DNA from: Pseudonocardia sulfidoxydans NBRC 16205
GTDB lineage: Bacteria > Actinomycetota > Actinomycetes > Mycobacteriales > Pseudonocardiaceae
Assembly: GCF_007989085.1 (NCBI RefSeq)
Contig: NZ_BJVJ01000030.1
Coordinates: 1-64,000 of the forward strand
Direction of reading: 5' to 3'
Length of the DNA: 64,000 bases
The notes under the pieces are model-generated. The model was not told the DNA's origin. It was given only the letters and a program-made list of their open reading frames with translations, and did no database searches. The position numbers were made by a program, and so were the translations under genes. Positions within the stretch are counted from its first letter, which is position 1. Every line of letters begins with the position of its first letter. Shown piece after piece: positions 27,965-41,212 of this stretch.

Positions 27965-30066
27965 ACCAGCTCCGCGAGCAGTTCCGCGACCCGCCGCGCT
28001 CCGTCCGACCGGACCGGCGGTGGGTGGACGTCGCGCGCCAGCTCGCCGGCCAACGCGGCCGCGAGCTGCTCGGGGCCGGTGTCGGCGTAGTCGAGGCGAC
28101 GGCCGGCTCCGTGCCGGTCGAGGCGGTGCCGGACGTGGATGTTCTGCTCGAAGTGGTTCTGTACCGGCACGTGGACGAACGGGCGCCCGCTCACCGTGAG
28201 CTCCATCGTCGTCGTCAGCCCGCCCTGCACGAGCGCGACGTCGCACGCGGCGAGGTACCGGTGCAGGTCGGGAACGTAGCCGTGAACCTCGACGCCCGGC
28301 GGCGCGGCGAGCGCCGCAGGGTCGATCCGCGGGCCCGCGACGACGACCATCCGCAGCCCCGGGATCGCCCGGGCGATCGCGGCGTGGGCGTCCAGGGCCC
28401 GGCGCAGCAGGTGCAGGCCCACCCCGGAGCCGCCGACGCTCACCACGCAGACCCGGTCGTCGCCACCCCAGCCGAGCTCGGCGCGCAGCGCGTCGCGATC
28501 GGTGACCGGTTCGAACCCGGACACCCACCCACCGAAGTCGTAGTTGCGGGCGGTCCACTCGCGGATGGGCGGCAGGTCGGGGCCGAAGTCGAGGGGCACG
28601 ACGTCGTCGGGGTCCCCGATGAACACCGCGCGGTCGCGCAGCCGCGGCGTCCGCGCCACCTGGTCGAGCATCTGGGCGTTCATGTCGGCGGTCAGCGCGG
28701 CCTCCCTGCCGCCGCCCGCGGGCATCGGCAGCCAGCCGACGAAGTCGGTCAGCCAGGCGTAGGCGGCCGTCTTGAGCTCGGGGTTCTCGTGCAGGAAGTG
28801 GTCGACCTCCCAGCCCTCGTCGGCGATCCACAGGTCGTAGGGGTCGTCGCGGACGACGTCGGCGAAGACCATGAAGTTGGCGACGAGGATCTCGTCCATC
28901 CGGCGCACCGCCTCGAAGACGCGCAGGTCGTGCTCGCCGGCCTCGGCCTCGATGTGCGCGGACTCCCCCGCGAGCCACGCGCTCGCCGGGTGCACGCGTT
29001 CCCCTGCCTCGGCGACGACGCCGGCGACCGGTGGTTGGGCGAGCCAGTCGATCTGCAGGCCGGGCCGGGCACGGCGCAGCTCGGCGGCGATCGCGAGGTC
29101 GCGGCGGACGTGCCCGAGACCGATCGGCGAGCACACCAGGAGGGCGCGTTTCGGCCGGTCGAGCGGGCGCCGCCACCGCCGGACCGGCTGCGGTGGCTCG
29201 AAGCGGGCCGCGAACCCCCGGATGGCCGTGTTCACGACGACGGGTTCCCGCGCCATCGGCAGGTGCCCGGCACCGTCGAGGACGAGCAGCTGCCCGTCGA
29301 CGAGCTCGGCGAGCCGTTCGCCGCGCTCGGGCGGCACGCAGCGGTCCTCGGTCGCGGTGATCACCAGCACCGGGCACTCGACGGACCGCGCCACCGCACG
29401 GGTCGCGGCGAGGTCGAGCGCGCCCGGGGCCCGGCCCACCACGATCAGCACCTCGGCCGAGGTCCCGAGCCCCCACTCGACGCCGTCCTCCCACACCTTG
29501 GTCGAATGCGGCTCGACGAGCAGCTCCCCGAAGAAGAACTCGAGGAATCCGCGCAGGTCACGTCGCCAGTAGTGCCAGTTGTCCTTCGCCCATCCGTCGT
29601 CGGTGTCCAGCGGTGCCCGGTGGTCGTGGACGGAGCGGGCGGGCAGCCCGGGCGCGAGCGCGACCGGGTTCGGGCAGATCGCGACGACCCTGAGCACCCG
29701 CTCCGGGTGCCGGGCCGCGGCGACGATGCACCGCCATGCCGCCGAGCAGTGCCCGACCAGGACCGCCTGCTCGACGTCGGCGGTGTCGAGCACCGCGACC
29801 AGGTCCGCGACGAGGGCGTCGAGACCGAGCCGCGCGGGGTCGGTGCACCGGTCGGAGCGCCCGTTGCCCAGTGGGTCGACCGTCACGACCCGGTGGTGGC
29901 GCGCCAGGAACGGCACCTGGGCCTTCCAGAGGCGTGAGTCGACGATCGGGCAGGGCGGAACGAGGAAGACGGTCGGTCCGGCCGACTTCGCGCCGAACAC
30001 CTCGTAGCCCAGCCGGTAGCCGTCCCGCTCGACGAACCCCGCGATGTCGGGTTGCAGCGCGCGCAT
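27961..30066 (-). CDS. Fusion of alpha/beta hydrolase and UGT-like glycosyltransferase
   Basis: 701 aa, ATG at 30066. Residues about 1-285 are an alpha/beta hydrolase (LVPPCPIVDSRLWK, TATEDRCVPP, GAGHLPM). The nucleophile elbow reads VGHCSAAW, with Cys near 106 where Ser is usual. Residues about 305-701 are a GT-B glycosyltransferase of the MGT/YjiC kind: start RALLVCSPIGLGHVRRDL and donor-site region VALVQGGLTTTMELTVSGRP. The glycosyltransferase could modify a metabolite and the hydrolase could release or trim it. Neighbours are the SARP regulator and a methyltransferase, which suggests a tailoring role; this is inference. Confidence 0.85.
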   Translation of the reverse strand: MRALQPDIAGFVERDGYRLGYEVFGAKSAGPTVFLVPPCPIVDSRLWKAQVPFLARHHRVVTVDPLGNGRSDRCTDPARLGLDALVADLVAVLDTADVEQAVLVGHCSAAWRCIVAAARHPERVLRVVAICPNPVALAPGLPARSVHDHRAPLDTDDGWAKDNWHYWRRDLRGFLEFFFGELLVEPHSTKVWEDGVEWGLGTSAEVLIVVGRAPGALDLAATRAVARSVECPVLVITATEDRCVPPERGERLAELVDGQLLVLDGAGHLPMAREPVVVNTAIRGFAARFEPPQPVRRWRRPLDRPKRALLVCSPIGLGHVRRDLAIAAELRRARPGLQIDWLAQPPVAGVVAEAGERVHPASAWLAGESAHIEAEAGEHDLRVFEAVRRMDEILVANFMVFADVVRDDPYDLWIADEGWEVDHFLHENPELKTAAYAWLTDFVGWLPMPAGGGREAALTADMNAQMLDQVARTPRLRDRAVFIGDPDDVVPLDFGPDLPPIREWTARNYDFGGWVSGFEPVTDRDALRAELGWGGDDRVCVVSVGGSGVGLHLLRRALDAHAAIARAIPGLRMVVVAGPRIDPAALAAPPGVEVHGYVPDLHRYLAACDVALVQGGLTTTMELTVSGRPFVHVPVQNHFEQNIHVRHRLDRHGAGRRLDYADTGPEQLAAALAGELARDVHPPPVRSDGARRVAELLAELV

Positions 30067-30097
30067 CGCCCACCTCCCGGTGCCAGTGTCGGCGCGG

Positions 30098-30130
30098 CCA
30101 TTGCAGGCCCATTGCAATCCCGGCGCAACC
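30098..30130 (+). promoter_or_regulatory. Three 11-bp direct repeats, candidate SARP-binding sites
   Basis: CCATTGCAGGC (30098), CCATTGCAATC (30109) and CCGGCGCAACC (30120) are contiguous 11-mers. The first two share CCATTGCA exactly and the third matches the second at 8 of 11 positions. SARP proteins are known to bind heptamer repeats at 11-bp spacing. The array lies in the 115-bp divergent region between the fusion gene and the methyltransferase gene, about 50 bp before the latter's start. Confidence 0.55.
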
Positions 30131-30181
30131 ACCGTCCGGACGCTTCCCCGGCACACGACCGATACGACAGGGGGCACGTCG

Positions 30182-31237
30182 ATGGCACTCGACCAGGACA
30201 AACTGATGGATTTCGTCTTCAGGTTCGCCGGTGACCTGGGCGCGACGATGGCGGCGGGAAACGTCGTCGTCGGGCACCGGCTCGGGCTCTACCGGGCTCT
30301 GGCCGACGGCCCCGCCACCGCCGACGAGCTCGCCGACCGGACCGGCTGCCACCCCCGCTACCTCGCCGAATGGCTGCGCGGGCAGGCCGCCGGCGGCTAC
30401 CTCACCTACGACGCGGACGCCGGCAGGTTCGCCATGACCGAGGAGCAGGAGTTCGCCCTCGCGAACCCCGACGGACCGGTGTACCTGCCGGGCGCGTTCG
30501 TCCTGGCCCTCGGCGCGCTGAAGGCCGAACCGCGGATCACCGAGGCGTTCCGCAGCGGCGCCGGGGTCGGCTGGAACACCCACGACGACGACGTGTTCGA
30601 CGGCTGCGAGCTGTTCTTCCGGCCCGGGTACGTCGCCAACCTGGTCGGGAGCTGGCTGCCCGCGCTCGACGGCGTCGTCGGGAAGCTCACGGCGGGCGCG
30701 CGGATCGCCGACGTCGGCTGCGGGCTGGGCGCCTCCAGTGTCCTGATGGCCGCCGAGTACCCGCGGTCGACGGTCGCGGCGTCGGACTACCACGCGGGGT
30801 CGATCGAGCAGGCGCGCAAGCGGGCGGCGGACGCGGGCGTCGCGGGGCGGGTGTCGTTCGAGGTGGCGGCGGCGCAGTCGTTCACCGGGACCGGCTTCGA
30901 CCTGGTGACGACGTTCGACTGCCTGCACGACATGGGTGATCCCGTCGGCGCGGCCCGCCACGTCCGGGAGGCGTTGGAGCCGGACGGCACCTGGATGATC
31001 GTGGAGCCGGCCGCGACCGACACCGTGGAGGGCAACCTGAACCCGGTCGGCCGGGTGTACTACTCGTTCTCCAGCTTCCTGTGCGTCCCGAACGGGCTCT
31101 CGCAGCCGGGCGGCTACTCGCTCGGGGCCCAGGCGGGCGAGGCCGCGATCGCCGCGGTCACCCGGGACGCGGGGTTCACCCGGTTCCGGCGGGTTGCCGA
31201 GACGCCGTTCAACAACGTCTTCGAGGCCCGCCCCTGA
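30182..31237 (+). CDS. SAM-dependent methyltransferase with N-terminal winged helix (Rv2258c-like)
   Basis: 351 aa. The N-terminal winged-helix dimerisation part (about 15-85) has GLYRALADGPATADELADRT and PRYLAEWLRGQAAGGYL. The SAM domain begins IADVGCGLGASSVLMA near 177; TFDCLHDMGDP follows. These are features of O-methyltransferase-like enzymes similar to Rv2258c; the substrate is unknown. A GGGGG run lies 7-8 bases before ATG. Its promoter holds the SARP-like repeats. The 3' end overlaps the end of the convergent kdpD by 29 bp. Confidence 0.88.
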   Translation: MALDQDKLMDFVFRFAGDLGATMAAGNVVVGHRLGLYRALADGPATADELADRTGCHPRYLAEWLRGQAAGGYLTYDADAGRFAMTEEQEFALANPDGPVYLPGAFVLALGALKAEPRITEAFRSGAGVGWNTHDDDVFDGCELFFRPGYVANLVGSWLPALDGVVGKLTAGARIADVGCGLGASSVLMAAEYPRSTVAASDYHAGSIEQARKRAADAGVAGRVSFEVAAAQSFTGTGFDLVTTFDCLHDMGDPVGAARHVREALEPDGTWMIVEPAATDTVEGNLNPVGRVYYSFSSFLCVPNGLSQPGGYSLGAQAGEAAIAAVTRDAGFTRFRRVAETPFNNVFEARP

Positions 31238-33800
31238 CCGTGACCGTGCTGGAACTGCCCTGTGAGTGGCGATAGTCGCTATAGCGACTATCGCCACTCA
31301 CAGGGCATCCGGCGGCCGGCAGTGAGATCGCCATCGTGACGCCGCCGCCGGGGGTGTCCTCGGCGGTCAGCCTGCCGCCCATGACCTCGGTGAGGCCCCG
31401 GGCCACCGACAGGCCGAGGCCGACACCGGTCGCGTGCCGGTCGCCGAGCCGCTGGAACGGCGCGAACAGCTTGTCCTGCTGCTTCTTCGGGACGCCGGGG
31501 CCGGAGTCGACGACGCGCAGCTCGGCGCGGCCGTCGTGGACGCTGGCCCGCAGCACGACCGGGGCGCCGCGGCCGTGGCGCAGCGCGTTGTCGACGAGGT
31601 TGGCGACGACGCGTTCCAGCAGGCCGACGTCGGCGACGACGTCGGGCAGGTCCTCCGCCAGCTCGACGACGACCCGCTCGGCCTCGGTGAGCCCGAGCAG
31701 GGCGCGGGCGGCGACCTCGTCGTAGCCGATGGGTTCGAGCAGGGGGTCGACGGCGCCGGCGGCGAGCCGGGACGAGTCGAGGAGGTTGTCGACGAGTCCG
31801 GTGAGCCGGTCGGCCGACTCCTCGACGGTCGCCAGGAGCTCGGTCCGGTCGTCGCCGGAGAGCGGCAGCGACGCGTCGCGCAGGCTCCCGACGGCAGCCT
31901 TGATCGAGGTCAGCGGGGTGCGCAGGTCGTGGCCGACGGCCGAGAGCAGGGCGCTTCGGGTCTCGTTGGCCTCCGCGCGCCGCTGGGCGCGGCGGGCCTG
32001 TTCGTCCGAGCGCTGGCTGCGCAGGGCGAGCAGGGCCTGGCCGCCGACGGTCTCCAGCAGCCGACGGTCGTAGGCGGGCAGGGAGCGTCCGGTCCCGACG
32101 AGGTGCAGCCCGTACTCGACCTGGACGTCGACGTCCGCGTCCTCGGGGCGGGCGCAGTCGGGCGGCCCGGAGACGGCGACCCGCCGCCAGTCACCGCCGT
32201 CGCGTTCCAGCAGCGCGACGCTGCCGAGCCCGAACGTCTCGCGCACCTGGGCCAGGAGTCGCGGCACCGGGTCTGCCCTGGTCAGGACGGTGCGCGCGAA
32301 CGAGGCCAGCAGCGCCGCCTCGGTCCGGGCGCGGGCGGCCTGTTCGCCGCGGCGGGCGGCCCGGTCGACGACGAGCGCGACCAGCACCGCGACGACCAGC
32401 ATGACGACGAGGGTGACCGCGTTCTCGGGCTCGTTGATCGTCAGCGAGTACCGCGGCGGGGTGAGGAAGAAGTTCAGCAGCAGGCCGCCGAGCAGCGCCG
32501 CGAGCAGGGCCGGCCCGAGGCCACCGACCAGGGCGGCGACGATCGTCGCCAGGAAGAACAGCACGACGTCGGTCGACAGGCCGATGACCTCGCCGAGGGT
32601 GGCGCCGAGGACGGTCGCGACCACCGGCCCGACGACGCCCAGCACCCAGCCGAGGAGCCGCCGGTTCGTCGGCAGGGCAGTGCGCACGCGTGGCACGCGC
32701 AGGGCGGACCCGGCGGCGCCGTGGGTGACCATGTGGATGTCGATCGACCCGGACTCGGCGACGACGTGGGCGCCGATGCCGGCGTCGAAGAGCCGGGCGA
32801 AGCGGGAGCGTCGCGACGTCCCGAGCACCAGCTGGGTGGCGTTGGCGCCGCGGGCGAACTCCAGCAGCGCGTCGGCGACCCCGGCGGCCCCGGAGTCGCC
32901 GACGACGGTGTGGAAGCTGGCGCTGACGTCGTCGGCGAGGCGCCGCAGCGCGGTGCTGGCCCCGACGGGGGCTCCGGCCAGGCCGTCGCCGCGCAGCACG
33001 TGCACGGCGAGGAGATCGGCCTGACCTGCGCGTTTCGCGATGCGGGTGGCGCGGCGCAGGACGGTCTCCGACTCGGGTCCGCCGGTGAGCGCGACGACGA
33101 CCCGTTCGCGGGTCTCCCAGGTCTCGCGGATGTGGTTGTCACTGCGGTAGCGCTGCAGGGCGACGTCGACCTCGTCGGCCACCCACAGCAGCGCCAGCTC
33201 GCGCAGCGCGATGAGGTTGCCGACCTGGAACCAGCTGGCGAGCGCGGCGTCGACCTTCTCGGCGGCGTAGACGTTGCCGTGCGCGATCCTACGCCGCAGC
33301 GCCTCCGGGGTGATGTCGACGAGCTCGATCTGCTCGGCGCGGCGCACGAACTCGTCGGGCACGGTCTCGTGCTGGCGGACGCCGGTGATCCGTTCGACGA
33401 CGTCGTTGAGCGACTCCAGGTGCTGGATGTTGACAGTGGACAGGACGTCGATCCCGGCGGCGAGGATGGTCTCGACGTCCTGCCAGCGTTTCTCGTGCAC
33501 GCTGCCGGGGGCGTTGGTGTGGGCGAGCTCGTCGATCAGGACGACCTCGGGGCGCCGGTCGAGGACGGCCGCGACGTCGAGCTCCCCACCGACGCGGGTG
33601 TCGCGCCGCGGCAGGACCTCGAGCCCGTCGAGCAGCTCGGCGGTCCGCGCCCGGCCGTGGGTCTCGACGACGCCGACGACGATGTCGGTGCCGCGGTCGC
33701 GTCGGCGCCTGGCCTCGCACACCATGGCGTAGGTCTTGCCGACGCCCGGCGCCGCGCCCAGGTGGATGCGCAGCTCCCCCGGTGTGCGAGGCCCGGTCAT
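31209..33800 (-). CDS. kdpD: Sensor histidine kinase KdpD
   Basis: 863 aa potassium/turgor sensor that normally phosphorylates KdpE. The N-terminal KdpD domain has Walker A GAAPGVGKT (15-23) and DELAHTN. A universal-stress-like domain follows (VVVALTGGPESETVLRR, GTSRRSRFARL). Four transmembrane helices lie at about 390-480, then a GAF-like part, HisKA with AVGHDLRTPLTSIKA (His near 622) and HATPase (NLVDNALRHGRG, GVGLGLSVARGL). ATG at 33800 with AGGAG five bases upstream, two bases after the kdpC stop. After the normal end (VTMAISLPA) the frame runs on about 35 codons through a palindrome. No kdpE lies next to it. Confidence 0.93.
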   Translation of the reverse strand: MTGPRTPGELRIHLGAAPGVGKTYAMVCEARRRRDRGTDIVVGVVETHGRARTAELLDGLEVLPRRDTRVGGELDVAAVLDRRPEVVLIDELAHTNAPGSVHEKRWQDVETILAAGIDVLSTVNIQHLESLNDVVERITGVRQHETVPDEFVRRAEQIELVDITPEALRRRIAHGNVYAAEKVDAALASWFQVGNLIALRELALLWVADEVDVALQRYRSDNHIRETWETRERVVVALTGGPESETVLRRATRIAKRAGQADLLAVHVLRGDGLAGAPVGASTALRRLADDVSASFHTVVGDSGAAGVADALLEFARGANATQLVLGTSRRSRFARLFDAGIGAHVVAESGSIDIHMVTHGAAGSALRVPRVRTALPTNRRLLGWVLGVVGPVVATVLGATLGEVIGLSTDVVLFFLATIVAALVGGLGPALLAALLGGLLLNFFLTPPRYSLTINEPENAVTLVVMLVVAVLVALVVDRAARRGEQAARARTEAALLASFARTVLTRADPVPRLLAQVRETFGLGSVALLERDGGDWRRVAVSGPPDCARPEDADVDVQVEYGLHLVGTGRSLPAYDRRLLETVGGQALLALRSQRSDEQARRAQRRAEANETRSALLSAVGHDLRTPLTSIKAAVGSLRDASLPLSGDDRTELLATVEESADRLTGLVDNLLDSSRLAAGAVDPLLEPIGYDEVAARALLGLTEAERVVVELAEDLPDVVADVGLLERVVANLVDNALRHGRGAPVVLRASVHDGRAELRVVDSGPGVPKKQQDKLFAPFQRLGDRHATGVGLGLSVARGLTEVMGGRLTAEDTPGGGVTMAISLPAAGCPVSGDSRYSDYRHSQGSSSTVTVRGGPRRRC
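31256..31307. repeat. 52-bp perfect palindrome inside the 3' end of kdpD
   Basis: The sequence is self-complementary over all 52 bases, centred between 31281 and 31282 on TATA; the half-site begins CCCTGTGAGTGGCGATAGTC. It lies 19 bp after the methyltransferase stop and inside the last codons of kdpD. As RNA it forms a long stem that would end transcription in either direction. Confidence 0.8.
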
Positions 33801-33802
33801 CC

Positions 33803-34381
33803 TCACTCCTGTCGTGACGTCGTCGCTGCCGCGATCGCGGCGTTGAGCTCCGGCACGTTCACCGTGGGCTCGCCGAGGAAGCCGAGTATCCGCCCGTCCG
33901 TCGCGTCGGCGACGAGCTGCTGAACCCGGTTCTCCGACAGGCCGGTCACCCGCACGACCCGCACGGTCTGCAGCGCCGCGTAGCCGGGGCTGATGTCGGG
34001 GTCGAGGCCGGACGCCGACGCCGCGACCGCGTCGGCGGGCACCGCGGCGGGGGCGACGTCCTCGCGCTGGGCGATGAGCGCGCGGCGTTGCGACACCACC
34101 GTCAGGAGGTCGACGGAGTCCTGCGCCTTGTTCGACCCGCCGGACGCGGGAAGCGACGCCACCGAGGGCCGGGTGTGGAAGTACGGGTCGGCGGCGGCGT
34201 CGGCGGCCACGGGGTCGACGGCGACCACCGGGACCGGGCCCTGCCCCTCGGCCGTGGCGGACAGCCCCGGAATCCGGGACACCCCCCACACGAGCAGCGG
34301 GTACACGAGGCCGCAGAGCACGGTGAAGACGATCAGCACGGCGAGGCCGGTGCCGGCCTGCCTGCGCAGCGTGGTGAACAC
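33803..34381 (-). CDS. kdpC: Potassium-transporting ATPase subunit KdpC
   Basis: 192 aa subunit that stabilises the KdpFABC complex. One N-terminal transmembrane helix (about 10-32, LAVLIVFTVLCGLVYPLLVW), then a periplasmic domain with SGLDPDISPGYAALQTVRV and LGFLGEPTVNVPELN, both family signatures. GTG start directly after the kdpB stop. It is part of the kdpFABC-kdpD operon. Confidence 0.95.
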   Translation of the reverse strand: MFTTLRRQAGTGLAVLIVFTVLCGLVYPLLVWGVSRIPGLSATAEGQGPVPVVAVDPVAADAAADPYFHTRPSVASLPASGGSNKAQDSVDLLTVVSQRRALIAQREDVAPAAVPADAVAASASGLDPDISPGYAALQTVRVVRVTGLSENRVQQLVADATDGRILGFLGEPTVNVPELNAAIAAATTSRQE

Positions 34382-34382
34382 G

Positions 34383-36368
34383 TCACATTCCCGGGATCAG
34401 TCGGACGAGCAGGTCGATGAGGAAGATGCCGACGAACGGCAGCACGACGCCGCCGAGTCCGTAGACGAGCAGGTTGCGCCGCAGCAGCCGGTCGGCGGAG
34501 GTGGGCCGGTAGCGCACGCCGCGCAGGGCCAGCGGGATCAGCGCGACGATGATCAGCGCGTTGAAGATCACCGCGGACAGGATCGCCGACTGCGGCGAGT
34601 GCAGCCCCATCACGTCCAGCGCGCCCAGCGACGGGTAGAGCGTCGCGAACATCGCCGGCAGGATCGCGAAGTACTTCGCGAGGTCGTTGGCCACCGAGAA
34701 CGTCGTCAGCGCACCGCGGGTGATGAGCAGCTGCTTCCCGATCTCGACGATCTCGATCAGCTTCGTCGGGTCGGAGTCGAGGTCGACCATGTTGCCGGCC
34801 TCCTTGGCCGCGGCCGTCCCCGTGTTCATGGCGACGCCGACGTCGGCCTGCGCGAGCGCGGGCGCGTCGTTGGTGCCGTCGCCGGTCATCGCGACGAGCC
34901 GGCCGCCCTCCTGCTCCCGCTGGATGTAGGCCATCTTGTCCTCGGGCGTGGCCTCGGCGATGTAGTCGTCGACGCCGGCCTGCGCGGCGATGGCGCGGGC
35001 GGTGCGGGGGTTGTCGCCGGTGACCATGACCGTCCGGATCCCCATGGCCCGCAGCTCGGCGAAGCGGTCCGCGATACCCGGTTTGACGACGTCGGAGAGC
35101 CGGATGACGCCGAGCACGCGGTCGTTCTCGGTGACGACGAGCGGGGTGCCGCCCTCGTCGGAGATGGCGTCGGTGACGGGGTCCGGGACGGTGACCGCTC
35201 CCTTGCGGATCCGGCGCCCGCCGATGTCGATCCCGGACGTCCGGGTCTGGGCGGTGAAGGGCACGAACTGGGCCCGCGCTTCCTCCGCCGACGCCTCGCG
35301 GGGCAGCGCGAACTCCCGCACGCAGAGATCGACGACGCTGCGCCCTTCGGGGGTCTGGTCGGCGAGGCTCGACAGCCGGGCCACCGACGCGAGCTCCGTG
35401 ACCGACACCCCGTCGTCCGGGATCAGCTCGGTGGCCTGCCGGTTGCCGAAGGTGATCGTGCCCGTCTTGTCGAGCAGCAGGGTGTCGATGTCGCCCGCGG
35501 CCTCGACGGCGCGACCCGATGTGGCGAGGACGTTGCGCTGCACGAGCCGGTCCATGCCCGCGATGCCGATCGCCGAGAGCAGGGCACCGATCGTCGTCGG
35601 GATGAGGCACACCAGCAGCGCCACCAGGACGACGACGCTCTGCGGCCCGCCCGCGTAGGCGCTCATCGGCTGCAACGCCACGACGGCCAGCAGGAAGATG
35701 ATCGTCAAGGCGGACAGCAGGATCGTCAACGCGATCTCGTTGGGTGTCTTCTGCCGCGACGCCCCTTCGACCAGCGCGATCATGCGGTCGACGAACGACT
35801 CCCCCGGCTTCGTCGTGATCTCGACGACGATGCGGTCCGACAGCACGGTCGTCCCGCCGGTGACGCTGGAGCGGTCGCCGCCGGCCTCCCGGACGACGGG
35901 TGCCGACTCGCCGGTGATGGCCGACTCGTCGACGGTCGCGATGCCCTCGACGACGTCGCCGTCGCCGGGGATGGTCTCGCCCGCCTTGACGACGACCCGG
36001 TCCCCGACCGCGAGCTGCGACGCGCCGCGGGTGGTGCCGTCGACCATCCGGGCGACGGTGTCGCGCTTGGTCTTCCGCAGCGACTCGGCCTGTGCCTTGC
36101 CCCGGCCCTCGGCGACGGCCTCGGCGAGGTTCGCGAAGAGCACGGTGAACCACAGCCAGCCGGCGATCAGCCAGCCGAACAGCGTCGGCTGCCAGATCGC
36201 GTCGAGCGTGACCAGCACCGAACCGGTCCACACGACGAACACGACCGGGTTGCGCAGCTGGGTGCGGGGGTCGAGCTTTCCGAACGCGTCGGGGACCGAG
36301 GTCCACAGGCTGCGCGGGCTGAACGCCCCCGCGTCCACCGATGCGGGTCTCTCCAGGGTGGTCGTCAT
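34383..36368 (-). CDS. kdpB: Potassium-transporting P-type ATPase subunit KdpB
   Basis: 661 aa catalytic subunit that drives high-affinity K+ uptake with ATP. The phosphorylation site [11 protein letters not shown], the actuator motif TGESAPV and the hinge [16 protein letters not shown] are all present, with about seven transmembrane helices. ATG at 36368 overlaps the kdpA stop (ATGA). Start [14 protein letters not shown] is typical. A longer frame extends upstream but is only the shadow of kdpA. Confidence 0.97.
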
Positions 36369-38008
36369 GCCAGTGCCTCCGCGATGGGCCCGAGCGCGAG
36401 CGCCGGGAAGAAGGTGAGTGCGGCGACGAGGACGACGGTCCCGGCGACGAGCACACCGAACAGCGGTTTGTCGGTCGCGAGGGTCCCGGGGTCCGTCTCG
36501 ACGCGGCGTTGCCGCGCGAGGGAACCGGCGAGGGCGAGGACCGCCAGGATCGGCACGAACCGGCCGAGCAGCATCGCGATCCCGAGCGTCGACTGGAAGA
36601 AGTCGCTGGTCACGGTCATCCCGGCGAACGCGGAGCCGTTGTTGTTGGCGGCGCTCGCGTAGGCGTACAGGACCTCGGAGAAGCCGTGCGCACTGTCGTT
36701 GTTGAGCGCGTCGAGGGTGCCGGGCAGGGCGATCGCGAGGCCGGCGCCGACGAGGACGACCGTCGGCATCACGAGGATCGACACCGCGGCGGCGGTGACC
36801 TCGCGTCGGCCGAGCTTCTTGCCCAGGTACTCGGGGGTGCGGCCGACCATCAGCCCCGCCAGGAACACGGCGATGATCGCGAGCACCAGCAGCCCGTAGA
36901 GCCCGGCGCCCACGCCACCCGGCGCGACCTCGCCGAGCAGCATGTCGAGCAACGTCACGCCGCCCGCGCCGCCCGACCAGCTGTCGTGCAAGGAGTTGAC
37001 CGCGCCGGTGGAGGTGCCGGTCGTCGACACCCCGAACAGGATCGACGACGGGATCCCGAAGCGGGTCTCCTTGCCCTCCATCGCTCCGGCCGCGATCCCC
37101 GCCGCGCCGGTGGGGTGCGTCTCCGCGAGCCAGGCGAGCGTCAGCATGATCGCCCACAGGCCGCCCATGACGGCCAGCAGGACCGAGCCCTGCCGGCGGT
37201 TGCCGACCATCGTGCCGAACGTGCGGGTCAGCGACACTGGGATGACCAGCATCAGGAAGATCTCGAACAGGTTCGACAGTGCGTTCGGGTTCTCGAACGG
37301 GTGCGCCGAGTTGGCGTTGAAGATGCCGCCGCCGTTGGTGCCGAGCTGCTTGACCGCCTCCTGGGAGGCGGTGGGAGCCAGCGGGAACGTGGTGCCACCC
37401 ACGTCCGCACCGGAGCGCAGCGACATCGTCACACCCATCACCAGCAGCAGGACGGCGGCGACGAACGCGAACGGCAGCATGATGCGGACGACCGCGCGGG
37501 TCAGGTCGACCCAGAAGTTGCCGATCCGGTCGGTGTTGCTCGCGACGAACCCCCTGACCAGCGCCACGGCCACCGCGATGCCGACCGCCGCCGACAGCAC
37601 GTTCTGCACCGTGAGGCCCGCCATCTGCACGGTGTTGCCCAGCGTCTGCTCGGGGACGTAGGACTGCCAGTTCGTATTGGTGACGAACGAGATCGCCGTG
37701 TTGAACGCTGTCGCCGGACCCACCGAGCCGCGGTCGAACGATGCGGGCAGCAGCGGCTGGAGCCGTTGCAGCAGGTAGAGCAGCACGATCGAGACGAACG
37801 AGAAGCCCAGCACGCCGGCGGCGTAGACGGGCCACCGCTGCCCGGACGACGGGTCGACCCGCACCACCCGGTAGATCAACGCCTCGACCCGCCAGTGCCG
37901 CTGCGTGGTGAAGACCGTCGCCATCCAGTCCCCCAGCGGAGCCCGACAGGCCGCGAGCAGGACCAGCAGCAGGGCGACCTGGAGCAGACCGGCGAGGGTG
38001 TCGTTCAT
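36365..38008 (-). CDS. kdpA: Potassium-transporting ATPase subunit KdpA
   Basis: 547 aa channel-like subunit with about ten helices that binds and passes K+. Filter-region motifs seen include [33 protein letters not shown] and [20 protein letters not shown] ribosome site precedes ATG. Lies 39 bp after kdpF on the minus strand. Confidence 0.97.
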
Positions 38009-38047
38009 GACAGTCCCTCCGCGGGGCCGCGCACGTCGGGACGCACG

Positions 38048-38149
38048 TCAGTACCTCTCCGGCCGCAGCAGCGCGACCAGCAGGTACACGAGCAGCGCGA
38101 GCGCGACGACGCCGCCCACCACGTTCGTCACGACGTCGGCGGTGCTCAC
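38048..38149 (-). CDS. kdpF: KdpF, small stabilising subunit of the Kdp ATPase
   Basis: 33 aa single-helix peptide: GTG start, hydrophobic core [19 protein letters not shown] and the family end RPERY. It binds between KdpA and KdpB in known complexes. The GTG at 38149 overlaps the TGA of the upstream 27-codon gene (GTGA), so both are translated together. Too short for usual gene callers. Confidence 0.88.
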
Positions 38150-38229
38150 AGCCGCTCCAGACCGCGCAGGCACAGCACCAGGACGACGAACCCGCCCACC
38201 AGCAGCAGTGCGTACAGCACATCGGCCAC
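38146..38229 (-). CDS. 27-aa membrane peptide translationally coupled to kdpF
   Basis: GTG start at 38229 with GAGGGAG 7-8 bases upstream. The peptide is one hydrophobic helix, [20 protein letters not shown], followed by LRGLERL. Its TGA overlaps the kdpF start. A charged end after a single helix, the ribosome site and the GTGA coupling all support a real gene, the first of the kdp operon. I recognise no characterised family. It may be a further small Kdp subunit, or a leader that sets kdpF translation. Confidence 0.7.
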
Positions 38230-38314
38230 CGGACAACTCCCTCGGACACCCTCGCCAGACCCTCTGGCGCAGACGTCGCCGAGTGTCGGTCCGGCCGGCG
38301 GTCCGCAGCGGTTT

Positions 38315-38365
38315 CCCGACGCGACCTTGACGCCCTCACCGGCGGTCTTGACGCGATCCTGACGC
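38315..38365. promoter_or_regulatory. Phased TGACGC-type direct repeats, candidate KdpE operator
   Basis: CCCGACGC (38315), CTTGACGC (38326), CTTGACGC (38347) and CCTGACGC (38358) lie 11, 21 and 11 bp apart, so four of five positions in an about 11-bp ladder. OmpR/PhoB-type regulators such as KdpE bind direct repeats with this spacing. The array lies 86-136 bp upstream of the first kdp start. Confidence 0.55.
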
Positions 38366-38428
38366 CCGCGAGACCACCGTCACCCGTGAGCCGATCACTG
38401 GCCTGACCACCACACCATTGAGCACATA

Positions 38429-38465
38429 GTCAAGTATTGACCTCAGCAAGTATCACGCCTTACGG
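38429..38465 (+). promoter_or_regulatory. Candidate cbiM promoter with overlapping inverted repeat
   Basis: TTGACC at 38437-38442, a 17-base spacer and TTACGG at 38460-38465 resemble a housekeeping promoter 39 bases before the cbiM GTG. GTCAA-gta-TTGAC at 38429-38441 overlaps the -35 box, and CAAGTAT is repeated at 38431 and 38447. A metal-responsive repressor could bind here. The space before cbiM is too short for a full cobalamin riboswitch. Confidence 0.4.
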
Positions 38466-38503
38466 TCCCGCCCGTCCTTGCTCTGCCCGTTGGGAGACCA
38501 GTA

Positions 38504-39199
38504 GTGCACATCGCCGAGGGTTATCTGCCGCCGCTGCACGCAGCGGCCTGGGGAGTGGCGGCCGCACCGTTCGTGATCCACGGCGCCCGAGCCGTGGTCC
38601 GGCAGGTCCGCGAGGAGCCCGACACCAAGCTGCTGCTCGGCGCCGCCGGAGCGTTCAGCTTCGTCCTCTCCGCACTGAAGATCCCGTCGGTCACCGGCTC
38701 CTGCTCGCACCCCACCGGCACCGGCCTCGGCGCGGTCCTGTTCCGACCACCCGTCATGGCCCTGCTCGGGACGATCGTCCTGTTCTTCCAGGCCGTGCTG
38801 CTCGCCCACGGCGGGCTCACCACCCTGGGCGCCAACGTCTTCTCGATGGCGATCATCGGTCCCTGGGTCGCCTACGGCGTCTACCGGCTGACCCGCCGCC
38901 TCGGCGGCGGCCTCGGCCTCGGCGTCTTCCTCGCCGCGGCGCTCGGCGACCTCGCCACCTACTGCGTGACCAGCGTCCAGCTCGCCCTCGCGTTCCCCGA
39001 CGCCGCGTCCGGCATCGGCGGCGCGATCGTCAAGTTCGGCTCCATCTTCGCCATCACCCAGATCCCGCTCGCGATCAGCGAAGGTCTCCTGACGCTGCTC
39101 GTCGTGCGCCTGCTCGTCCGCATCAGCCCCGACGAGCTGCGCCGCCTCCGCATCCTGCCCGCGGCCACCCCCGCCGCCTCGAAGGAGGTCGACGCGTGA
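38504..39199 (+). CDS. cbiM: Cobalt/nickel ECF transporter substrate-capture subunit CbiM
   Basis: 231 aa, six to seven helices. The protein begins [10 protein letters not shown]; in CbiM/NikM the N-terminal Met1-His2 coordinates the metal inside the membrane, so the GTG start at 38504 is fixed by function. Further family motifs are [19 protein letters not shown] (a conserved metal-ligand His) and [24 protein letters not shown] lies 7 bases upstream. First gene of cbiMNQO; genes overlap or touch. Co2+ or Ni2+ cannot be told from sequence. Confidence 0.95.
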
Positions 39200-39552
39200 A
39201 GCGGTCGACGCTGCTCAACTGGCTCATCGTCGTGGCCGTGGTGGCCCTCGCCGCCATCCCGGTGCTGTTCATCGAAGGCGAGTTCGGAGGTGCCGACGGC
39301 ATCGCCGAAGAGTCCATCACCGAGTCGCACCCGGACTACGAGCCGTGGTTCAGCTCCCTGTACGAGCCGCCGTCGGGCGAGATCGAGTCGGGGCTGTTCG
39401 CGCTGCAGGCCGCGATCGGCGCCGGCGTCGTCTGCTACTACTTCGGCGTCGCCAGGACGAAGCGCCGCTTCGCCCGCGAGGCCGCTGCCGCCGCCGCGGC
39501 GGCGGAGGGTGAGTCCGACCGTCCACAGCCGGTCGACGCCCGCGACTCCTGA
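39196..39552 (+). CDS. cbiN: Cobalt transport protein CbiN
   Basis: 118 aa with two transmembrane helices (about 8-26 and 67-86) and an extracytoplasmic loop that ends in the signature [20 protein letters not shown] followed by [10 protein letters not shown]. This is CbiN rather than NikN, which points to cobalt or a mixed system. GTG overlaps the cbiM stop. The C-terminus has an Ala run. Confidence 0.93.
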
Positions 39553-40289
39553 TGCTGCCGCTCGACGCGGCCGCCTACACCAACCGCTGGCGCACCCGCC
39601 ACCCCGGCGAGAAGGCCCTGCTGTCGCTGGGCCTGCTCGTGCTCGCCGTCGCCCTGCCGACCTGGCCCGGCGCCGCGATCGTCGGCGTCGCCGCGCTCGT
39701 CCTCGTGCTCGGCCCGGCCGGGCTCGCACCGCGGGCGCTGTGGCGGGCCGTGCGGGTACCGCTCGGGTTCGTCGTCACCGGCATGCTGCCACTGCTCGTC
39801 GCCATCGGCGGGCAACCCTGGATCGCGTGGGACCCCACCGGCTGGCCCAGAGCCCTCGAGCTCGGCGGCCGCGCCGTCGCCGCACTGCTGTGCCTGCTGC
39901 TGTTCGCGGCGACGACACCACTCGCCGACCTCCTGCCCCGGCTCGAGAAACTCGGCGTCCCGCCCGCCGTCACGGAGATCGCGTCGCTCATGTACCGCAT
40001 GCTGTTCCTGCTCCTGGAATCGATCCGGGTCATCCGCGACGCCCAGGCCGGCCGGCTCGGCTTCCGCACCTGGCCGACGACCTTCCGGTCCCTCACCGGC
40101 CAGGGCGCCGCCGTCTTCGTCCGCGCCTTCGACCGGGCCCGCCGCCTCGAACACGGCCTCGCGTCCCGCGGCTACAACGGCGCGCTGCACGTCCTCGTCC
40201 CGGCCCGCCCGATCTCGCCACCGTTCCTGATCGCGACGACCGCGCTGCTCGCCGCGATCGTCGCCTCGACCCTGCTCCTGGCACCCTGA
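39552..40289 (+). CDS. cbiQ: ECF transporter transmembrane subunit CbiQ
   Basis: 245 aa with about five to six helices. The two cytoplasmic coupling helices that touch the ATPase include the end FDRARRLEHGLASRGYNG, matching the family Ala-Arg-Gly signature. ATG overlaps the last base of the cbiN stop, and the cbiO ATG overlaps the cbiQ stop. Couples ATP hydrolysis by CbiO to metal uptake. Confidence 0.93.
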   Translation: MLPLDAAAYTNRWRTRHPGEKALLSLGLLVLAVALPTWPGAAIVGVAALVLVLGPAGLAPRALWRAVRVPLGFVVTGMLPLLVAIGGQPWIAWDPTGWPRALELGGRAVAALLCLLLFAATTPLADLLPRLEKLGVPPAVTEIASLMYRMLFLLLESIRVIRDAQAGRLGFRTWPTTFRSLTGQGAAVFVRAFDRARRLEHGLASRGYNGALHVLVPARPISPPFLIATTALLAAIVASTLLLAP

Positions 40290-41212
40290 TGGCCACCCCC
40301 GTACTGCAGGCCGCCGGCCTCGTCTTCTCCTACGAACCCGGCCGGCCCGTCCTCGTCGGGGCCGACCTCGAGATCCACGAGAACCGCCGCCTCGCCGTGC
40401 TCGGCCCCAACGGCGGCGGCAAGACCACCCTGTTCCGGCTCCTGCTCGGCCTCCTCGAACCCACCGACGGCGCCGTGATCGTCGACGGCACCCCCCTGCG
40501 ACGCAAGCGCGCCGACCTGACCCGGCTGCGTGAACGCGTCCAGCTCGTCCTGCAGGACCCCGACGACCAGCTCTTCGCCGCCGACGTCGCCCAGGACGTG
40601 TCCTTCGGCCCGCTCAACCTCGGGCTGCCGCGCGCCGACGTCGAGCAGCGCGTCGACACCGCGCTCACCGCGCTCGGCGTCGCGAACCTCGCCGACCGCC
40701 CCACCCACCTGCTGTCCTTCGGACAGAAGAAGCGCGTCGCGATCGCCGGGGCCGTCGCCATGCGCCCGGGCGTGCTGATCCTCGACGAACCCACCGCCGG
40801 CCTCGACCCCGAAGGCGTCGAGGAGCTCGTCGCCACCCTCGACGACCTGCACCGCGCCGGGACCACCATCGTCCTGTCGACCCACGACGTCGACCTCGCC
40901 TACCGCTGGGCGCAGGAGGTCGCCGTGGTGCACGACGGCCGCGTCCACACGACGACCGCCGACGCCGCCCTCACCGACGTCGAGCTCCTGCGGTCGGCAC
41001 GGCTGGGACCGGCCTGGGCGCCGGCGGTACGGGAGCTGCTGCGCGCCCTCGGCTCCGACGCCGCCCCCCTCACCGCGACGGACCTGCACGCCGCCGTCGC
41101 AGCGCTCCGGCCCGACCGCGCCGCAGGCGCACCCCCCGCCCCTGCCCACCGGGTCAGAGACGCTGCGCGTCCGTCGGCGGCGTCCACGGGACCCGGTCGA
41201 ACACCTCCGTGA
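40289..41212 (+). CDS. cbiO: ECF transporter ATP-binding subunit CbiO
   Basis: 307 aa ABC ATPase. Walker A GPNGGGKTT, Q-loop LVLQDPDDQLF, signature LLSFGQKKRVAIAGAVAM and Walker B GVLILDEPTAGLD are in order; H-loop in STHDVDLAY. The signature reads LSFGQ rather than LSGGQ, common in this family. The final 20 codons overlap the convergent secreted-protein gene by 59 bp. Confidence 0.95.
   Translation: MATPVLQAAGLVFSYEPGRPVLVGADLEIHENRRLAVLGPNGGGKTTLFRLLLGLLEPTDGAVIVDGTPLRRKRADLTRLRERVQLVLQDPDDQLFAADVAQDVSFGPLNLGLPRADVEQRVDTALTALGVANLADRPTHLLSFGQKKRVAIAGAVAMRPGVLILDEPTAGLDPEGVEELVATLDDLHRAGTTIVLSTHDVDLAYRWAQEVAVVHDGRVHTTTADAALTDVELLRSARLGPAWAPAVRELLRALGSDAAPLTATDLHAAVAALRPDRAAGAPPAPAHRVRDAARPSAASTGPGRTPP

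Follow-up and report, generated by a model that had tools for sequence, protein, structure and literature searches.

A small membrane-protein gene at the head of kdp operons covaries with KdpA and is a probable subunit of the Kdp potassium pump

Results

The first gene of the kdp operon

The kdp operon in the window (the whole 64,000-nucleotide stretch of DNA that was analysed) is headed by a small gene, here called X, that recurs beside kdpF in several phyla and covaries with KdpA. Judged by its conservation, its operon linkage and this covariation, X is probably a fifth subunit of the Kdp pump, a translated single-helix membrane protein that would be docked on helix 2 of KdpA. The minus-strand order in the window is X, kdpF, kdpA, kdpB, kdpC and a kdpD-like gene, with X as the first frame of the operon, and the features are as follows.

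38146..38229, minus strand: gene X, provisionally kdpX, of 27 codons and a TGA stop; it starts with GTG and encodes one hydrophobic helix and a C-terminal LRGLERL
38237..38240, minus strand: GGAG ribosome-binding site of X, 7 nt before the GTG
38221..38223, minus strand: X Asp3 codon, which covaries with KdpA Arg82
38200..38202, minus strand: X residue 10 codon (Leu here), the second covarying position
38048..38149, minus strand: kdpF (PF09604, E 1.9e-10; TIGR02115), with a 4-nt overlap with X (GTGA)
36365..38008, minus strand: kdpA (PF03814, E 2.2e-211)
37763..37765, minus strand: KdpA Arg82 codon (at the outer end of helix 2), which covaries with X Asp3
37775..37777, minus strand: KdpA Tyr78 codon, one turn from Arg82, second-ranked column
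37787..37789, minus strand: KdpA residue 74 codon (Ile here), which covaries with X residue 10
34383..36368, minus strand: kdpB (TIGR01497, E 8.6e-289 on 34383-36362)
33803..34381, minus strand: kdpC (PF02669, E 1.2e-47)
31209..33806, minus strand: kdpD-like sensor kinase, read from the ORF list, approximate start

The start of kdpB was set from the sequence MTTTLERP, which overlaps the kdpA stop. A preliminary description of this DNA had given the position of X without a strand; the position holds, and the gene lies on the minus strand. The GTG start, the ribosome site, the hydrophobic helix, the LRGLERL end and the GTGA overlap with kdpF that it reported are all present on reading the window sequence. 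No known RNA element was found in the leader region (37900-38700). On the plus strand, divergent from the kdp operon, lies a cobalt-transport-like cluster at 38504-41212 (cbiM, cbiN, cbiQ and cbiO by reading of the frames). Past the kdpD-like gene, the first frame of any size is plus-strand and methyltransferase-like (30044-31237), and no kdpE was noticed there in a reading of the ORF list.

Conservation of X as a coding sequence

Tiny frames are common in GC-rich DNA, with 83 frames of at least 25 aa listed in 11 kb of the window, and X might be taken for a frame that has stayed open by chance in a GC-rich leader. This explanation is contradicted by conservation in a series of controls. With KdpA as bait, 292 loci were collected from the genus of the window, the order and phylum to which it belongs, other phyla, named genome contigs and plasmids, with Bacteroidota and Bacillota only thinly represented. 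The start of KdpA was located for 285 of them, 250 of which have KdpF upstream. In 228 of the 250 a short hydrophobic frame terminates close to the beginning of kdpF, a count that makes no use of an X motif and includes some visibly unrelated frames. A profile of the X family, built from 131 distinct sequences of the same loci and applied at a threshold of 12 bits, matched 211 of the 285 loci, compared with 0/285 antisense regions and 0/1425 shuffles; at 8 bits there was one shuffle match. Because this profile came from the loci that it scored, a further profile was made from 109 proteobacterial X sequences alone. At 8 bits the proteobacterial profile recovered X in 27/31 loci of the window's genus, 9/22 of Actinomycetota, 10/16 of Acidobacteriota, 25/27 of Chloroflexota and 5/30 of Cyanobacteriota. 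It also matched each of the 13 non-proteobacterial loci from named contigs or plasmids; antisense regions gave no match and the shuffles gave one.

Selection and ribosome sites point in the same direction. Among 29 distinct sequences from the genus, the pN/pS of X is 0.56 in frame, whereas the other two frames give 1.01 and 1.74. A Shine-Dalgarno match of at least 4 nt precedes 80.6% of the X starts in the 211 loci and 75.5% of 208 kdpF starts, compared with 11.5% of 1649 other upstream ORF starts, the starts having been picked by length and blind to the ribosome site. X is exactly 27 aa long in 133 of the 211 sequences, and its hydrophobic core has a mean hydropathy of 2.4; with fewer than 50 residues and one hydrophobic helix, it has the size of a small single-helix accessory membrane protein. 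Together with the co-occurrence in the genus described below, these controls leave a fortuitous frame with practically no probability, and we hold with very high confidence that X is a real gene. The hidden gene that had been proposed to head the kdp operon is thus borne out, the frame being kept in 31/31 loci of the genus and in 211/285 overall; its loss from related kdp operons had been named beforehand as the refuting result, and what was found is that the frame is kept.

Distribution of X and linkage to kdpA

At 12 bits X was found in 31/31 loci of the window's genus, 78/80 named genome contigs, 47/69 loci of the Pseudomonadota draw, 24/27 of Chloroflexota, 10/16 of Acidobacteriota (one of the 16 lacks upstream DNA), 12/22 of Actinomycetota, 5/8 plasmids and 4/30 of Cyanobacteriota (one of which repeats a named Melainabacteria locus). 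It was absent from E. coli (0/1) and from one further Chloroflexi locus (0/1), and in all 74 of the 285 loci carry a pump without X. Of the two named contigs without a match, L116 nevertheless carries a clear X frame (35.6 bits), one that lacked an ATG, GTG or TTG start in the ORF search. Three loci are duplicates (L222, L234 and L351 of L123, L136 and L117, respectively); L222 and L234 are still included in the counts over 285 loci, and L351 was left out of the fresh set used below. On a tree of 238 KdpA sequences the gains and losses of X number about 14 or 15.

The genomes of the window's genus were searched with a profile of 22 sequences (E<1e-5). X was present in 52/52 genomes with KdpA versus 0/10 without, and 56 of the 59 X matches lay within about 250 nt of the KdpA match, showing that X is part of the kdp operon and is inherited with kdpA, as a gene for a Kdp subunit should be. 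The remaining three copies have no intact kdpA beside them: one belongs to a decayed kdp remnant (L295), one is a lone X in a 6-kb stretch free of kdp genes and near an NhaA-like antiporter frame on the other strand (L293), and one lies upstream of kdpD and kdpE with no kdpA (L294). The last of these would suit a peptide that acts on the sensor KdpD and not on the pump. We consider a KdpD target very unlikely, as pumps without X also adjoin kdpD (18 loci in the refetched Pseudomonadota set) and the covariation, with KdpA and KdpB columns compared, points to KdpA.

Other small frames were seen at some kdp loci. Four Acidobacteriota loci (L224, L225, L227 and L229) have no X and carry before kdpF a different short hydrophobic frame of about 20 aa with WFPL or FLPL, which is perhaps a replacement of X. 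In eight Bradyrhizobium loci (L068, L072, L076, L078, L079, L080, L082 and L083) the interval from kdpF to kdpA holds another small hydrophobic frame, whose end is 5 nt before the KdpA match.

Position in the operon

In 190 of 208 loci the distance from the X stop to the start of kdpF is between -4 and +18 nt; a 4-nt overlap of the two genes (GTGA or ATGA type) occurs in 48 of the 208. This overlap, together with the usual place of X as the first frame, would suit a leader or coupling peptide whose translation alone matters and which loads ribosomes onto kdpF. Leaders before kdpF have been published: a paper on Mycobacterium smegmatis mapped one of 120 nt and found the annotated TTG frame in it to be non-functional, and a Caulobacter paper gives one of roughly 100 nt. 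In presumed mycobacterial loci (an assignment that we inferred) X starts about 80 nt before kdpF and would therefore fit inside a leader of the 120-nt type. Rearranged operons speak against a leader function, with the orders F-X-A-C-B-D in L308, B-X-A-C in L334 and kdpB-X-F-A-C in Deinococcus radiodurans; in these X does not stand before the first structural gene, and since it is kept by kdpF or kdpA it is not simply a leader. The protein-level constraint seen in pN/pS and the residue covariation with KdpA weigh further against such a peptide, which makes this explanation extremely improbable. The six-frame scan behind the orders of L308 and L334 was used for gene order only; it missed X in L328, L331, L332 and L335, where the ORF scan had it.

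Covariation of X Asp3 with KdpA Arg82

An aspartate occupies column 3 of the X profile in 198 of 209 aligned sequences. In the curated main set KdpA Arg82 accompanies X Asp3 in 182/182 loci and X Glu in 3/4, compared with 0/8 for X without an acid and 4/65 for loci with no X. For this set the Asp state of seven loci (L268, L219, L116, L266, L228, L181/L301 and L049) was assigned after reading of the frames, and L046, with an unreadable N-terminus, was dropped. Before curation, with five weak loci set aside, the corresponding counts were 179/179 (Asp), 3/4 (Glu), 1/7 (no acid) and 5/65 (no X). On the KdpA tree, with uncurated data, the X acid and Arg82 change in the same direction in 5.8 of the 10 independent pairs that have support and in opposite directions in 0.0. 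KdpA column 82 ranks first of 342 columns (median p 0.031), and column 78, one turn away, ranks second. After curation column 82 is first of 341 (4.9 versus 0.0), and the best of 303 KdpB columns reaches 2.6 versus 0.2. These pair tests rest on few independent changes, with p near 0.03 at best. The presence of X as such, with Asp3 ignored, gave no significant KdpA column (best P22, 4.0 to 0.3, and R82, 3.6 to 0.0). X covaries with a subunit of the pump through the Asp3/Arg82 pair, and E. coli-type pumps, which have no X, carry another residue at KdpA position 82.

A fresh set of 116 new loci, from which none was dropped, was then compared; four Myxococcota KdpA matches and part of the matches from the order were left out of it. 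Arg82 was found in 89/89 fresh loci with X Asp3, 0/6 with X lacking an acid and 12/21 without a profile match. Among these 12, L427, L439 and L453 show an X frame with Asp and L371 a degraded X frame; nine of the 18 fresh loci without X thus keep Arg82, and at least seven of the nine are Myxococcota. Arg82 can therefore persist for a while once X has been lost. The Myxococcota loci that keep Arg82 with no X are L347, L352, L357, L364, L365, L366 and L371 (the last with the degraded frame), and on their sequences these are apparent recent losses of X.

A second residue pair and the predicted topology

The other columns of X were compared with those of KdpA and KdpB in about 5,500 exploratory tests, in which five column pairs had p 0.031. 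Of the five, X10/KdpA74 alone was taken further, since it is also first by mutual information (z 7.3), in a list that includes many X22 pairs resembling noise. KdpA residue 74 is aromatic in 59/76 loci where X10 is Gly or Ala versus 4/112 where X10 is larger, a pattern of size complementarity. For X10, the top column among 87 is KdpA74 (4.6 to 0.3; median p 0.125); the same comparison in the fresh loci gave 3/7 versus 0/88. This signal is weaker than that of Asp3/Arg82. The two pairs lie seven residues apart down X and eight residues back along KdpA helix 2, a spacing that fits antiparallel packing of the two helices.

The charges at the ends of X suggest its orientation. In the 211 sequences the N-terminal ends contain 1 basic and 176 acidic residues, and the C-terminal ends 339 basic and 185 acidic residues; under the positive-inside rule this pattern would place the N-terminus of X outside. 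In the KdpA of the window an Arg-rich loop precedes helix 2, and hence the end of helix 2 that carries Arg82 should also be outside.

Annotation and known families

The expectation that annotation pipelines skip X agrees with the plasmid records. Fifteen annotated records were examined and X occurs in 12, of which two list it as a CDS, the plasmid gene table being incomplete by its own description. Both are from Mycetohabitans (WP_191287747.1 and WP_212667346.1), and they match X in place and in profile score (29 bits). Their name, 'potassium ABC transporter ATPase', is wrong for a 34-residue peptide. In Rhizobium beringeri (L342:2245-2400) a 51-residue CDS between kdpA and kdpB is named phosphoenolpyruvate carboxylase, which is impossible for such a size.

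X from the window matched 0 Pfam or NCBIfam families at E up to 10, and the neighbouring KdpF scored 40.8 and 35.9 bits. For 65 X members only weak, scattered matches to Pfam and NCBIfam were obtained, none of them convincing, the best being BcsF in Pfam (E 0.0024, 4 members) and a match at 0.0074 in NCBIfam. A PHROGs scan of the window X alone gave a best E of 0.12, and comparison of X with solved structures in the PDB gave a best E of 0.72, with no convincing match. KdpF, which is thought to stabilize the Kdp complex, resembles X in having about 30 residues and one helix, in being encoded next to kdpA in the kdp operon, and in being a short peptide long missed by annotation; the two genes usually co-occur, and their sequences are unrelated. 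The idea that X is a duplicate or family member of KdpF was rejected, as X has no match to the KdpF models and the hhalign probability is 1.2%; one of the 65 members matched a KdpF model at E 0.017. CydX and AcrZ are small single-helix subunits of other membrane complexes. Like X they are tiny membrane proteins that act on a large membrane machine or are encoded alongside it; they differ in their partner, and no sequence match to X was found. Among the matches listed from the open-licence literature, no description of X was found.

Discussion

In the proposed arrangement the N-terminus of X would lie outside and its C-terminus inside, and its helix would pack antiparallel against helix 2 of KdpA. 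Asp3 of X is predicted to form a salt bridge with KdpA Arg82 at the outer rim, and residue 10 would sit against KdpA residue 74 one turn-set deeper. X would probably stabilize the helix-2 part of KdpA, much as is supposed for KdpF. The earlier suggestion that the gene encodes an extra subunit of the K+ pump gains support from the covariation with KdpA, from which we infer the role.

The same covariation would also be explained if X binds KdpA transiently as a small regulator or assembly helper and is no fixed subunit, by analogy with the small peptides that tune other P-type pumps. The absence of X from 74 of the 285 loci, which have working pumps, and from some relatives of X-bearing myxobacteria would fit a partner of this kind. 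However, the X gene lies as near to kdpF and kdpA as the gene for a subunit would (190/208 at -4 to +18 nt), and the constant charge pair suggests a lasting contact. We regard a transient regulator as unlikely, though it deserves some weight, and favor a fixed subunit.

Kdp is a textbook potassium importer, and its mechanism was derived from the E. coli pump, which functions without X. A sequence search for KdpA structures gave 3 distinct sequences, each of 557 residues like E. coli KdpA, so within that search the solved structures have a KdpA of the length seen in an organism without X. It is conceivable, and we put it forward tentatively with the balance somewhat against it, that the standard Kdp pump across several phyla has five subunits, KdpXFABC. 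X would then clamp the outer part of KdpA helix 2 through Asp3-Arg82 beside the potassium entrance and set the stability of the selectivity filter or the affinity, and the E. coli pump would be a reduced form. The Asp-Arg pair offers a simple charge-swap handle on the contact between X and KdpA. Should X prove to be a subunit, it may be encoded in leaders that are described as untranslated in other species, and work on the mechanism and stability of Kdp would have missed a part used by many environmental bacteria.
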